From positions 1-64,000 of the forward strand of contig DATNNM010000011.1 of NCBI GenBank assembly GCA_035601835.1: 64,000 bases of DNA. Direction: 5' to 3'. Source of the stretch: Candidatus Tumulicola sp. GTDB taxonomy: Bacteria > Vulcanimicrobiota > Vulcanimicrobiia > Eremiobacterales > Eremiobacteraceae. Under the pieces are notes generated by a model, which did not search any database, was not told the origin of the DNA, and saw only the letters and a list, made by a program, of their open reading frames with translations. Positions 16,841 to 23,919 of the stretch are shown one piece after another (position 1 is the stretch's first letter; every line of letters begins with the position of its first letter). The position numbers were made by a program, and so were the translations under genes.

Positions 16841-18025
16841 ATGGAGAGCTATGATGTGGCCGTCATCGGAGCCGGACTCGCCGGCTTGCAGTGCGCGAGG
16901 ACACTCGCGCGCCGTGGGCTGCGCGTGGCGCTTGCCGACAAGAAGCAGACGCCATGGTCCACGGTGCACACGACCGGCATCTTCGTCCGCCGCACGCTTG
17001 AAGACTTCGCACTGCCGCTGGTCTGCCTCGGCCCACCGATCCGAGACGTCATCGTGTACTCGCCCTCGCGCAAGCCGTTAGCGCTGCGCAGCCGGTACGA
17101 TGAGTTTCGCGTCGGCGACATGCGCGGATTGTACGAACGCATGCTCGACGAATGTCTGCGCTTGGGCGTCACATGGATGCCGCGCATGCGCTATTGCGGC
17201 ATCGACGCGGAAGGTGCGCGGAGTTCGGTGCGCCTGCAGAAATTCCGAGCTGACGCTCGGAACGCTACATTTATATTGAAGGCGCGCTACGTGGTCGGCG
17301 CGGATGGCGCGATGTCCGCCGTGGCGCGCGACCTCGGGTTGGACTCGAACCGCGAGTGGATCGTGGGTTTGGAGGAGGTCTTCGACGGCGTGCCGGTCGC
17401 GGTGCCGCCGACGCTGCACTGTTTCCTCGATCCTGTGCTTGCGCCGGGCTATTTGGCCTGGGTAGTTCACGATGGCGTGCAGGCGCACATCGGGGTCGGC
17501 GGCGACGCGCGGCGCTTCGATCCGCAAGCGGCGCTCGCCGCGTTTCATCGGACGATCACGGGTCTCGTCGACCTTGCGCATGCCCGCCTTGTGGAGAGGC
17601 GTGGGGGCCGTATTCCGGTTGGCGGCGTGCTGGCTCGCATCGCGAATCGACGAGGCTTGCTCGTGGGCGACGCCGCCGGCGCGCCGTCGCCGTTGACGGC
17701 GGGCGGCCTCGACGCGTGTTTGCGCCTCTCGGAGCACGCGGCGAACGCGATCGCGTTTCGCATGCAAGCGGATGATGACCAGCCCCTGCAAGATTATGAT
17801 GGGGCGCGCTTTCGCGCGCGCTTCTTCGCGCGGCGCTGGATGCGCAAGGCGCTGAGCGCGCTACGCGATCCCCTCGCGCTCGACATCGCTTGCGCGGCGC
17901 TGCGCGCATGGCCGTTGCGCCCTCTTGCCGAGCATATTTTCTTCGGCCGCGGTTCCTTTCCCGAAATCACAGGACGCCGCGCCCGCGGGCCGGAAGCATA
18001 TGGTTTGAGCTCCCGGGGGTATTAG
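16841..18025 (+). CDS. FAD-dependent oxidoreductase, geranylgeranyl-reductase/FixC-like
   Basis: The 394-residue flavoprotein has an N-terminal Rossmann motif VIGAGLAGLQCARTLARRG, the central VVGADGAMSAVARDLG and the FAD-closing LLVGDAAGAPSPLTAGGLDACLRLSEHAANAI. It belongs to the group that includes geranylgeranyl reductases and halogenase-like monooxygenases. Those reduce isoprenoid chains or oxidise aromatic substrates. Residues 135-143 (FRADARNAT) are encoded by a REP-like hairpin read in frame, and the stop falls in a second degenerate hairpin. GGGAGCG 4 nt before the ATG supports the start. Tandem palindromic operators stand upstream. The exact substrate is unknown. Confidence 0.8.
   Translation: MESYDVAVIGAGLAGLQCARTLARRGLRVALADKKQTPWSTVHTTGIFVRRTLEDFALPLVCLGPPIRDVIVYSPSRKPLALRSRYDEFRVGDMRGLYERMLDECLRLGVTWMPRMRYCGIDAEGARSSVRLQKFRADARNATFILKARYVVGADGAMSAVARDLGLDSNREWIVGLEEVFDGVPVAVPPTLHCFLDPVLAPGYLAWVVHDGVQAHIGVGGDARRFDPQAALAAFHRTITGLVDLAHARLVERRGGRIPVGGVLARIANRRGLLVGDAAGAPSPLTAGGLDACLRLSEHAANAIAFRMQADDDQPLQDYDGARFRARFFARRWMRKALSALRDPLALDIACAALRAWPLRPLAEHIFFGRGSFPEITGRRARGPEAYGLSSRGY
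17243..17269 (-). repeat. REP-like hairpin inside the FAD reductase gene
   Basis: On the minus strand it reads GTAG + CG + TTCCGAGC + GTCA + GCTCGGAA, the same arms as the elements at 35513 and 56294. It is translated in frame as FRADARNAT on the plus strand. Confidence 0.8.
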
Positions 18026-18506: not shown

Positions 18507-21236
18507 ATGAACGAAGGCGGCCGCACCCTGCTGCTCCTCGACGTCTACGCGCTGGTCTATCGCGCGTTCTTCGCGTTGCCGCCGTTGACGTCACCAGCGG
18601 GCTCGGCCGTCAACGCCGCCTACGGCTTCGAGCGCATGCTCGCGCGCATCATCATGCAGGAACGCCCGACGCACGCCGCGGCCTGCTTCGACGCGGGGAT
18701 CCCCGCTGAACGCCTTTCCATCGCCCCCGAATACAAGGCGCATCGTCCGGAAATGCCGGACGATCTGTCCTCGCAGTTCCCGCTGGTGAGGCGCCTGCTC
18801 GAAGCCTATCGCATTCCGATCGTCGAGATCCCGGGCGAAGAGGCCGACGACTGCATCGCAACGCTTGCGACGCGCGCGTCGGCCGACCGGCTGCGCTCGG
18901 TCATCGTGTCCGGCGACCTCGACTTGCTGCAGCTGGTCGACGAACATTGCACGGTGGTGATGCCCCGGCGCGGCATCAGCGACATGCTGCGTTACGACAT
19001 CGCCGCGGTCAAGGAACGCTTCGGGCTCGAGCCGGCGCAGCTACCCGACTATCGCGGTCTCAAGGGCGATCCATCGGACAATCTGCCCGGGGTGCCGGGT
19101 ATAGGGGAAAAAACGGCCGCCAAGCTCCTCGCGCAGTTCGGCTCGCTCGACGCGCTGCTCGCGAACACCGAGGCGGTCACGCCGAAGCGGGTTGCAGATC
19201 TGCTGGTGCGCTATGCCGATCAGGCGCGCCGCTGCCGCGACGTCTCGATCGCAAAACGCGACCTACCGATCGCCCTGACATGGCCCGATGCCGAATTCCG
19301 CGGCCCCGACGCCGACAAGCTCAACGCGCTCTTCCGCGAGCTTGGCTTCCGTTCGCTGATGTCGCAGTACGACGAGCGGTCCGAGAAGAGCGAGAACAAC
19401 GGACCTAAAGGTCCGTCGCCACAAGGTCCGTTGCTACAAAATACGGCGACGGTCGCCACCGACTACCGCTTCCTTCAAGCTCCGCAGGACGTGATCGACG
19501 CGATCGGGCGTGCGCGCAACGCGGGCACGGTGGCGTTGACGAGCCTGCCCGAACTGGTTTCGTGGCGCGATCCTTCGCCGATCGCCTTTGCGCTGGCGTG
19601 GGAACCAGGTGTCGCGGTCGCGTTTCCCGCGAGCAGCGCGCTCGACGAACCTGCGGTGCGCGAAGCATTCGCGGCGCTGTTGAGCGACCCGCGCGTCGGA
19701 AAGGTCGCTCATGCCGGCAAGCCGCTGACCGGCTGGCTCGGCTCCCACGGCTTGCGCCTCAACAACCTGATCTTCGACGCCGGACTCGCAGCCGGGTTGT
19801 TGGATTTCACGCGCAGCGAGCCGGCGATCGCCGAAACCATCGCGGCGCTCGACGGCGCCATCGTCCACGCGCCTTTCGAACGGCCCACGCAAAGTCTAGG
19901 ACTGTTCGACGCCGGCCCACAGGTCACAGGCGCGCAAGCATCCGCCGCCGATGCGATCCTGCGCCTTTATCCGGCCCTCGAACAGCGCCTGCGAGACGCG
20001 GGCATGGATGGGCTCATGCGCGACGTCGAAATGCCGCTCGTCGAGGTGCTCGCCGAAATCGAGCAAGTCGGATTCAGGCTCGACCTGGCCGAGCTATCGC
20101 GCATCCGCGCAAATCTGGACCGCATCATCGCCGAAACGAGCGCCGCCGTCTACCGGCTCGCGGGCGCTGAGTTCAACATCAACTCGCCCAAGGCGCTGGG
20201 CGAGGTGCTCTTCGAGAAGCTCGGGCTGCCGAGCGGCTACAAGACGAAGACCGGTTACGCGACGGGCATCGAAGTGCTGGCTCCGTTGGCGCTCGAGCAC
20301 GAAATCGCGGCGCGAGTACTGGAGTACCGTGAGGTCGCAAAACTCAAATCGACGTACGTGGACGCCCTGCCCGCGCTCTTGGACCCCGCGACGGGCCGGC
20401 TGCACACGACGCTGCATCAACTGGGGGCAGCCACCGGCCGTCTCTCGAGTTCGGATCCAAATCTGCAGAACATCCCGATCCGCAGCGCGGCCGGCCGCGA
20501 AGTGCGGCGCGCATTTCTAGCGCCGACGCCCGGCAACGTGCTGCTCGCCGCAGACTACTCGCAGATCGAGCTGCGCTTATTCGCTCATCTCTCGGGCGAC
20601 CCGAATCTGATCGCCGCGTTCGCCGCGGGCGAGGACATCCACGAGTTCGCGGCGCGCGCGGTCTTCAACGTGCCGGCGGAGGCCGGCGTCGACGCGGAGA
20701 TGCGCCGCCGCGCCAAAGCCGTGAACTTCGGCATTCTCTACGGTCAGGGTCCGACCGGGCTCGCGCAAAGCGTCGGCTTTTCGCGCGCCGAAGCCAAGGA
20801 TTTCATCAGCGCGTACTTCGCGCGCTTTCCGCGGGTCAAGACGTACATCGACGAATCGCTCGAGCGCGCGCGCGAGCAGGGTTACGTGACGACGCTGCTG
20901 GGGCGGCGCCGGCTGCTTCCCGATCTGCACTCGAGCAACCACGGCTTGCGCGCCGCGGCGGAGCGCATGGCGATCAACGCGCCGCTGCAAGGCAGCGCGG
21001 CGGACCTCATCAAACTCGCCATGGTGCGGATCGCGCGCCGCTTCGACGAGTGCAAGACGCCGGCGCGCATGGTGCTGCAGGTGCATGACGAGCTGATCTT
21101 CGACGTCGCCCCCGCGAGCGTGCCGGAAGTGCGCGATATCGTCCGATCGATCATGGCGGATGCGATCCAGGTGAGCGTTCCGTTGGTGGTCGACTGCAAA
21201 GTCGGCGCCAATTGGGGCGAAGTCGAGCCGGCCTGA
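18507..21236 (+). CDS. polA: DNA polymerase I with degenerate proofreading domain
   Basis: The 909-residue enzyme has an N-terminal 5'-nuclease (1 to about 290, with GEEADDCIATLA and DYRGLKGDPSDNLPGVPGIGEKTAAKLL), a 3'-5' exonuclease-like region (about 315-490) and a family A polymerase. The polymerase carries motif A DYSQIELRLFAHLSGD, motif B RRRAKAVNFGILYG and motif C QVHDELIFDV. The exonuclease region lacks the DxE motif of proofreading enzymes (VALTSLP in its place), so it is probably inactive, as in several bacterial homologues. Residues 298-311 are encoded by a REP-like element, exactly in the linker between nuclease and Klenow-like parts. mutM follows 10 bp downstream. Confidence 0.97.
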   Translation: MNEGGRTLLLLDVYALVYRAFFALPPLTSPAGSAVNAAYGFERMLARIIMQERPTHAAACFDAGIPAERLSIAPEYKAHRPEMPDDLSSQFPLVRRLLEAYRIPIVEIPGEEADDCIATLATRASADRLRSVIVSGDLDLLQLVDEHCTVVMPRRGISDMLRYDIAAVKERFGLEPAQLPDYRGLKGDPSDNLPGVPGIGEKTAAKLLAQFGSLDALLANTEAVTPKRVADLLVRYADQARRCRDVSIAKRDLPIALTWPDAEFRGPDADKLNALFRELGFRSLMSQYDERSEKSENNGPKGPSPQGPLLQNTATVATDYRFLQAPQDVIDAIGRARNAGTVALTSLPELVSWRDPSPIAFALAWEPGVAVAFPASSALDEPAVREAFAALLSDPRVGKVAHAGKPLTGWLGSHGLRLNNLIFDAGLAAGLLDFTRSEPAIAETIAALDGAIVHAPFERPTQSLGLFDAGPQVTGAQASAADAILRLYPALEQRLRDAGMDGLMRDVEMPLVEVLAEIEQVGFRLDLAELSRIRANLDRIIAETSAAVYRLAGAEFNINSPKALGEVLFEKLGLPSGYKTKTGYATGIEVLAPLALEHEIAARVLEYREVAKLKSTYVDALPALLDPATGRLHTTLHQLGAATGRLSSSDPNLQNIPIRSAAGREVRRAFLAPTPGNVLLAADYSQIELRLFAHLSGDPNLIAAFAAGEDIHEFAARAVFNVPAEAGVDAEMRRRAKAVNFGILYGQGPTGLAQSVGFSRAEAKDFISAYFARFPRVKTYIDESLERAREQGYVTTLLGRRRLLPDLHSSNHGLRAAAERMAINAPLQGSAADLIKLAMVRIARRFDECKTPARMVLQVHDELIFDVAPASVPEVRDIVRSIMADAIQVSVPLVVDCKVGANWGEVEPA
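19398..19438 (-). repeat. REP-like element inserted in frame in polA
   Basis: On the minus strand it reads GTAG + CA + ACGGACC, a spacer, then ACGGACC-TTTA-GGTCCGT. The hairpin is perfect (7-bp arms). It is composite, with an extra half arm next to the GTAG head. It is translated without a frameshift as NGPKGPSPQGPLLQ. Confidence 0.8.
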
Positions 21237-23316: not shown

Positions 23317-23913
23317 ATGATCATCGGTCTCACTGGCGGCATCGGCGCGGGGAAATCAACCGTCGCGGCGATGTTCGCCGCTCTCGGCGCCGCCGTCATC
23401 GATACGGATGCGATCGCGCGCGAAGTCGTCGAGCCCCCGAGCCCGGTGCTGGACGCGATCAAGGCGGAGTTCGGTCCCGGTGTGATCGGTCCGGATGAGC
23501 GCCTGCTCCGCGACGCTCTGGGCCGCATCGTTTTTGCCGACCAAGCCAAACGCGCGCGCCTCAACCAACTCATGCATCCGGCCATCCTCAAGCGCACGCT
23601 CAAGAAGATCGCGAGCTACCCTCCGTCCGCCAAGGTCGTGGTCGTCGTGCCGTTGCTCTTCGAATCCGGATTCGAGCGCAATTGCGATGCGGTCGTCGCC
23701 GTGGTGGCCGACGCAGCGGTCCGCCGGGCGCGCGTCGCCGAGCGCGACGGGCTCACGCCCGAAGACGTCGATGCGCGGATGTCGGCCCAGTTGCCTGACG
23801 CGGAATACGAACGCCGCGCCACGCTCGTGGTGCGCAACAACGGCGACGTCAAAGCGCTCAACCGCGAAGTCGCCGCCGCATGGCAACGCTTGCTTGTAGT
23901 GCCGGGGCTTTAG
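23317..23913 (+). CDS. coaE: Dephospho-CoA kinase
   Basis: The 198-residue kinase has P-loop LTGGIGAGKSTV (about 5-16), DTDAIAREVV, HPAILKR and the LLFESGFE lid region. It performs the last step of coenzyme A synthesis, phosphorylating dephospho-CoA. The final residues (VVPGL) and the TAG stop are encoded by a REP-like hairpin (23896-23919), so a native C-terminus of slightly different length was probably replaced. Another hairpin lies in its leader. Confidence 0.95.
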   Translation: MIIGLTGGIGAGKSTVAAMFAALGAAVIDTDAIAREVVEPPSPVLDAIKAEFGPGVIGPDERLLRDALGRIVFADQAKRARLNQLMHPAILKRTLKKIASYPPSAKVVVVVPLLFESGFERNCDAVVAVVADAAVRRARVAERDGLTPEDVDARMSAQLPDAEYERRATLVVRNNGDVKALNREVAAAWQRLLVVPGL

Positions 23914-23919
23914 CCCCGG
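23896..23919 (+). repeat. REP-like hairpin at the coaE stop codon
   Basis: The element is GTAG + TG + CCGGGGC-TTTA-GCCCCGG. The coaE TAG (23911-23913) lies in it. Confidence 0.85.

Follow-up and report, generated by a model that had tools for sequence, protein, structure and literature searches.

The question raised by this locus is how a short palindrome came to be read in frame by polA, the gene for DNA polymerase I, and why it has been kept there. The window, the whole 64,000-nucleotide stretch of DNA that was analysed, had been described earlier from its letters alone. This sequence-only reading reported a GTAG head and an ACGGACC-TTTA-GGTCCGT hairpin in polA. Both are present, and the coordinates given then were right within one or two bases. 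The features of the locus are as follows.

18507-21236, plus strand: polA, DNA polymerase I, 909 aa (NF004397, TIGR00593 and Pfam domains above cut-off)
19374-19451, plus strand: codons 290-315, the linker, for which the AlphaFold2 model has no secondary structure and a pLDDT <50
19399-19437, minus strand: compound GTAG-REP of family A, GTAGCAACGGACCTT + GTGGCGACGGACCTTTAGGTCCGT, recognised from the sequence, a 15-nt direct repeat with inverted repeats, and genome copies
19434-19437, minus strand: outer GTAG head (CTAC on the plus strand), from sequence and copy comparison
19419-19422, minus strand: GTGG head of the inner unit, from sequence and copy comparison
19399-19416, minus strand: core hairpin ACGGACC-TTTA-GGTCCGT, its stem covarying across copies

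The polA copy was found to be compound and not simple, with the 15-nt head and 5' arm present twice and GTGG as the inner head. Its 39 nt equal 13 codons. Over 19399-19437 the minus-strand sequence is GTAGCAACGGACCTT-GTGGCG-ACGGACC-TTTA-GGTCCGT, and the plus strand of 19397-19440 reads CAACGGACCTAAAGGTCCGTCGCCACAAGGTCCGTTGCTACAAA. The stem can be counted as 9 bp around a 2-nt loop or as 7 bp around TTTA. When the DNA is single-stranded, the outer arms pair as well, into an 11-bp stem that follows GTAG directly. The GTAG REP superfamily is characterised by an unpaired GTAG directly before a palindrome, a stem of 5-13 bp, a loop of 2-20 nt, dispersed and mostly intergenic copies, and a REP-associated tyrosine transposase (RAYT) flanked by REPs; the stem and loop in polA lie within these limits. 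Compound copies were counted by a scan of the DNA stretches that were read, which yielded three, the design of the polA copy being found also at two other loci (L309/L103 and L107).

The description of the element as a mobile, REP-type palindrome was borne out by its dispersal. The family A core has 48 exact copies in the 2.57-Mb genome as compared to none for the reversed control pattern, and the copy in polA is therefore far beyond chance. Within 3 mismatches the 24-nt unit has 83 genome copies, the sister family B (GTAGTGCCGGGGCTTTAGCCCCGG) has 234, and a third REP family, C (GTAGCGTTCCGAGCGAAGCTCGGA), is also present. An unpaired GTAG stands at a fixed place in 37 of the 48 exact-core copies; in polA it is on the outer unit. 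At the pair outside ACGGACC/GGTCCGT (the 9th pair), 30 of these 48 copies have C-G and 16 have A-T, and many family A copies carry the compensated double change ACGGAGC/GCTCCGT. Counted on distinct sequences, Watson-Crick pairing held in 277 of 296 stem cells, and none of 2000 shuffles exceeded 273. Exact family A cores numbered 43 in G006, a genome of another genus in the same taxonomic family, and 0-2 in the other 39 genomes of relatives. In G006 only one weak in-gene case was seen among 32 copies read, despite the 43 exact cores, and the RAYT match of that genome contains one stop codon.

One RAYT was found in the genome under study (G000:C16:73676-74128, equal to L131 5677-6129, minus strand), with a score of 109.7 bits against an NCBIfam cut-off of 80. 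It is directly flanked up- and downstream by family B (GTAGTGCCGGGGCTTTAGCCCCGG) copies only, and a second RAYT, for family A, was not found in the genome. We infer that the RAYT at C16:73676-74128 may act on family A as well.

In polA the ORF is uninterrupted through the REP, so that the palindrome is read in frame at codons 298-311, as had been proposed. Residues 298-311 are NGPKGPSPQGPLLQ, part of which is coded by the REP, and the predicted peptides spanning the REP-encoded residues are SENNGPK and GPSPQGPLLQNTATVATDYR. According to Pfam the 5'-nuclease domain (5_3_exonuc) ends at residue 269 and the polymerase part starts at 529. In an AlphaFold2 model built from the PolA of the window and 16 homologues, residues 290-315 follow the final helix of the nuclease (282-285) and precede a strand at 319-322, with a short turn just ahead of that strand. 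The REP-encoded residues fall wholly within this stretch, which is modelled as disordered. The Pfam boundaries and the model thus agree with the earlier placement of the site between the nuclease and polymerase parts.

Neither the REP residues nor the hairpin were present in any of the 29 PolA homologues that were read across the linker (10 from the same family and 19 from the class). The same linker residues without the hairpin, which the sequence-only reading had named as evidence against its claim, were sought in these 29 homologues and not found. The polA copy is a lineage-specific REP copy, and to this extent the lineage-specific gain that had been proposed stood; a net addition of about 14 residues between matching flanks was not shown. 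The net gain is unsupported because linker length drifts in the family and there is no same-genus genome for comparison. Between fixed alignment anchors the linker has 40 aa here; REP-free relatives of the same family have 31-45 aa, and the remaining members of the class 27-30 aa. Without the 13 codons our linker would have 27 aa, which is the class value, and the closest homologue (66% identity) has a linker of 44 aa without a REP. A scan of genome contigs for PolA gave matches from distant phyla only; an empty site in a near relative was not among them. For lack of a same-genus genome with the site empty, the insertion event itself was not seen.

In all, 229 REP copies belonging to the three families were examined in stretches of 2.4-3 kb, with gene calls from a codon model for which the window had served as the training set. 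Most of the copies were intergenic (182), with 30 at a gene edge and 17 inside ORFs. Two family-C copies at L116 and one copy at L295, upstream of cytidylate kinase, were dropped as in-gene copies, being doubtful and probably inside false N-terminal extensions. This left 14 copies in frame in 12 genes, namely PolA and the following.

L003: DUF748 protein, two copies
L005: ObgE
L008: RpsC, in the tail
L234: MiaA
L266: GT4 glycosyltransferase
L279: Y-family DNA polymerase
L281, 1201-1317: E2 acyltransferase, two identical family B copies in the linker that joins the lipoyl and E3-binding domains
L292: CysRS
L305: PheT
L126 and L252: two proteins without a Pfam match

The peptides NGPKGP, [RC]SAGALAP and SGAKAPAL recur among the translated copies. 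Of the in-frame copies, ten could be scored, and eight of these were located outside Pfam domains where 3.2 would be expected (Poisson-binomial P 0.0013); the test thus comprises ten copies only and takes Pfam coverage as the null. In alignments of ObgE, RpsC and CysRS the REP residues were found in variable regions and were absent from relatives, with no clear net change in length. For PolA, ObgE and CysRS the linker with the REP shows no clear excess in length over the REP-free linkers of relatives, so that insertion may have been followed by compensating loss, or the REP may have replaced earlier linker sequence. The polA case had been singled out as notable; at least 11 other genes of this genome, several of them normally essential, carry in-frame copies, and polA is not special among them. 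In 24 further copies at gene edges the stop codon of the gene lies inside the REP, with VVPGL, VATDL and RT among the recurrent protein ends before the stop.

Some further palindromes were observed. At 17243-17268 (minus strand) of the window a family-C-like GTAG hairpin, GTAGCGTTCCGAGCGTCAGCTCGGAA, is in frame in a FAD gene of geranylgeranyl-reductase-like type (16841-18025) that lies shortly before polA; it codes there for the residues KFRADARNATF. A gene that starts with MIIGLTGGIGAGKS and by eye resembles dephospho-CoA kinase takes its stop codon from a family B REP at 23896-23919 (plus strand), and its C-terminus is LLVVPGL. In the rpsC tail (L008, about 1450-1475) a second palindrome, AGCAGGAGCTGAAGCTCCTGCT, is found upstream of the REP and is perhaps a fourth repeat family; a sequence resembling it lies beside the REP in L015.

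Taken together, we consider the palindrome a near-neutral, tolerated GTAG-REP insertion in the polA linker of this lineage, with a probability of roughly 0.87. A small non-autonomous GTAG-type REP would have landed in the linker antisense to the gene. Three of the six reading frames of the REP are without a stop, and it would have landed in one of these three open frames. The Gly/Pro-rich peptide NGPKGPSPQGPLL is likely to have done little harm because the inter-domain linker is unstructured, and the copy would thus have been kept, with a near-neutral effect on PolA. REPs are presumably spread by the RAYT as single-stranded hairpins, the sole RAYT found being flanked by the sister family B. 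Purifying selection would have removed copies inside folded domains or in closed frames, and the linker and tail copies would be those that survive.

A native linker that is palindromic by accident might be suspected, as linkers in this family are variable and rich in Gly, Pro and Ala. However, the exact 18-nt core is common to dozens of loci and the 39-nt compound design to two others, which cannot be convergence; because of the REP copy number this explanation is refuted and keeps practically no probability. A function of the hairpin in the polA mRNA, whereby a translational pause, a processing site or a terminator would set the nuclease apart from the polymerase part, is also very improbable. 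The RNA of 19380-19460 does fold better than shuffles (z -2.75), but an RNA stem is expected of any REP copy in such orientation. The coding strand of this region has no terminator-like site, the hairpin is absent in relatives, and most REP copies in the genome are intergenic. Beyond the stem itself a role in the mRNA is not supported.

Hardly more probable is selection for the insert, in which linkers made from REPs would alter the activity of enzymes of replication, repair and translation, for example with the mutator effect speculated on in PMC3733652. The copies are found in linkers and tails, where proteins tolerate anything; they occur in either orientation and code for unrelated peptides, and the genes for the glycosyltransferase, the E2 acyltransferase and the DUF748 protein carry them too. 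Such selection would nevertheless fit the presence of PolA, the Y-family polymerase, CysRS, PheT, MiaA, ObgE and RpsC among the genes with in-gene copies, and the over-representation of repair genes stated by the authors of the 2013 study (PMC3733652). Near-neutral tolerance in the linker is the reading that we prefer. A wider proposal, which we regard as unlikely, is that spreading REPs continually furnish the proteins of this lineage with new linkers: open frames would give small flexible Gly/Pro/Ala peptides (NGPKGP, SAGALAP, GAKAPAL), copies would gather between the domains of core information-processing proteins, and a need for harmless translated frames would partly shape the evolution of REP sequence.

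The polA finding alone shows no new mechanism. Its meaning is that tiny REPs can become part of core proteins (PolA, ObgE, CysRS, PheT, RpsC), where the survivors tend to be between domains or in tails. The suggestion made in 2013 that REPs survive in flexible linkers thereby becomes a test that can be counted.

Among known systems, the Rickettsia palindromic elements (RPE) are likewise mobile palindromes that are tolerated in frame inside conserved genes, and an RPE-carrying guanylate kinase was reported to remain active (PMC2229807). They are, however, Rickettsia-specific and have about 105-146 bp with a longer peptide (PMC2229807), whereas the REP here has 24-39 nt, below the RPE size, is GTAG-tagged and is mostly intergenic. 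The REPtron of Marinomonas sp. MWYL1 (PMC8266576) has the same GTAG head and TTTA loop, but differs in host and stem, and the RAYT here adjoins family B and not A. RAYT-type enzymes cut single-stranded GTAG hairpins, one of them with a TTTA loop, and GTGG heads are still cleaved in vitro (PMC8266576). The closest system is that of the GTAG REPs published in 2013, with in-frame copies in DNA polymerase I, UvrABCD, RecBCD and other genes (PMC3733652), where it was also suggested that linkers tolerate intragenic REPs. The novelty that the sequence-only reading saw in a REP within an essential-type gene had therefore been anticipated. Shared with these REPs are the GTAG head, the short perfect stem, the 2-4 nt loop, the dispersed copies, in-frame copies in replication, repair and tRNA genes, stop-supplying REPs and a RAYT in the genome. 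The stem sequence and apparently the lineage are different, and the polA copy here is compound with a duplicated head. An in-frame GTAG REP in DNA polymerase I is thus already known; beyond that study, the domain position, an AlphaFold model and the linkers of relatives were checked here, and these document the position of the REP in PolA.
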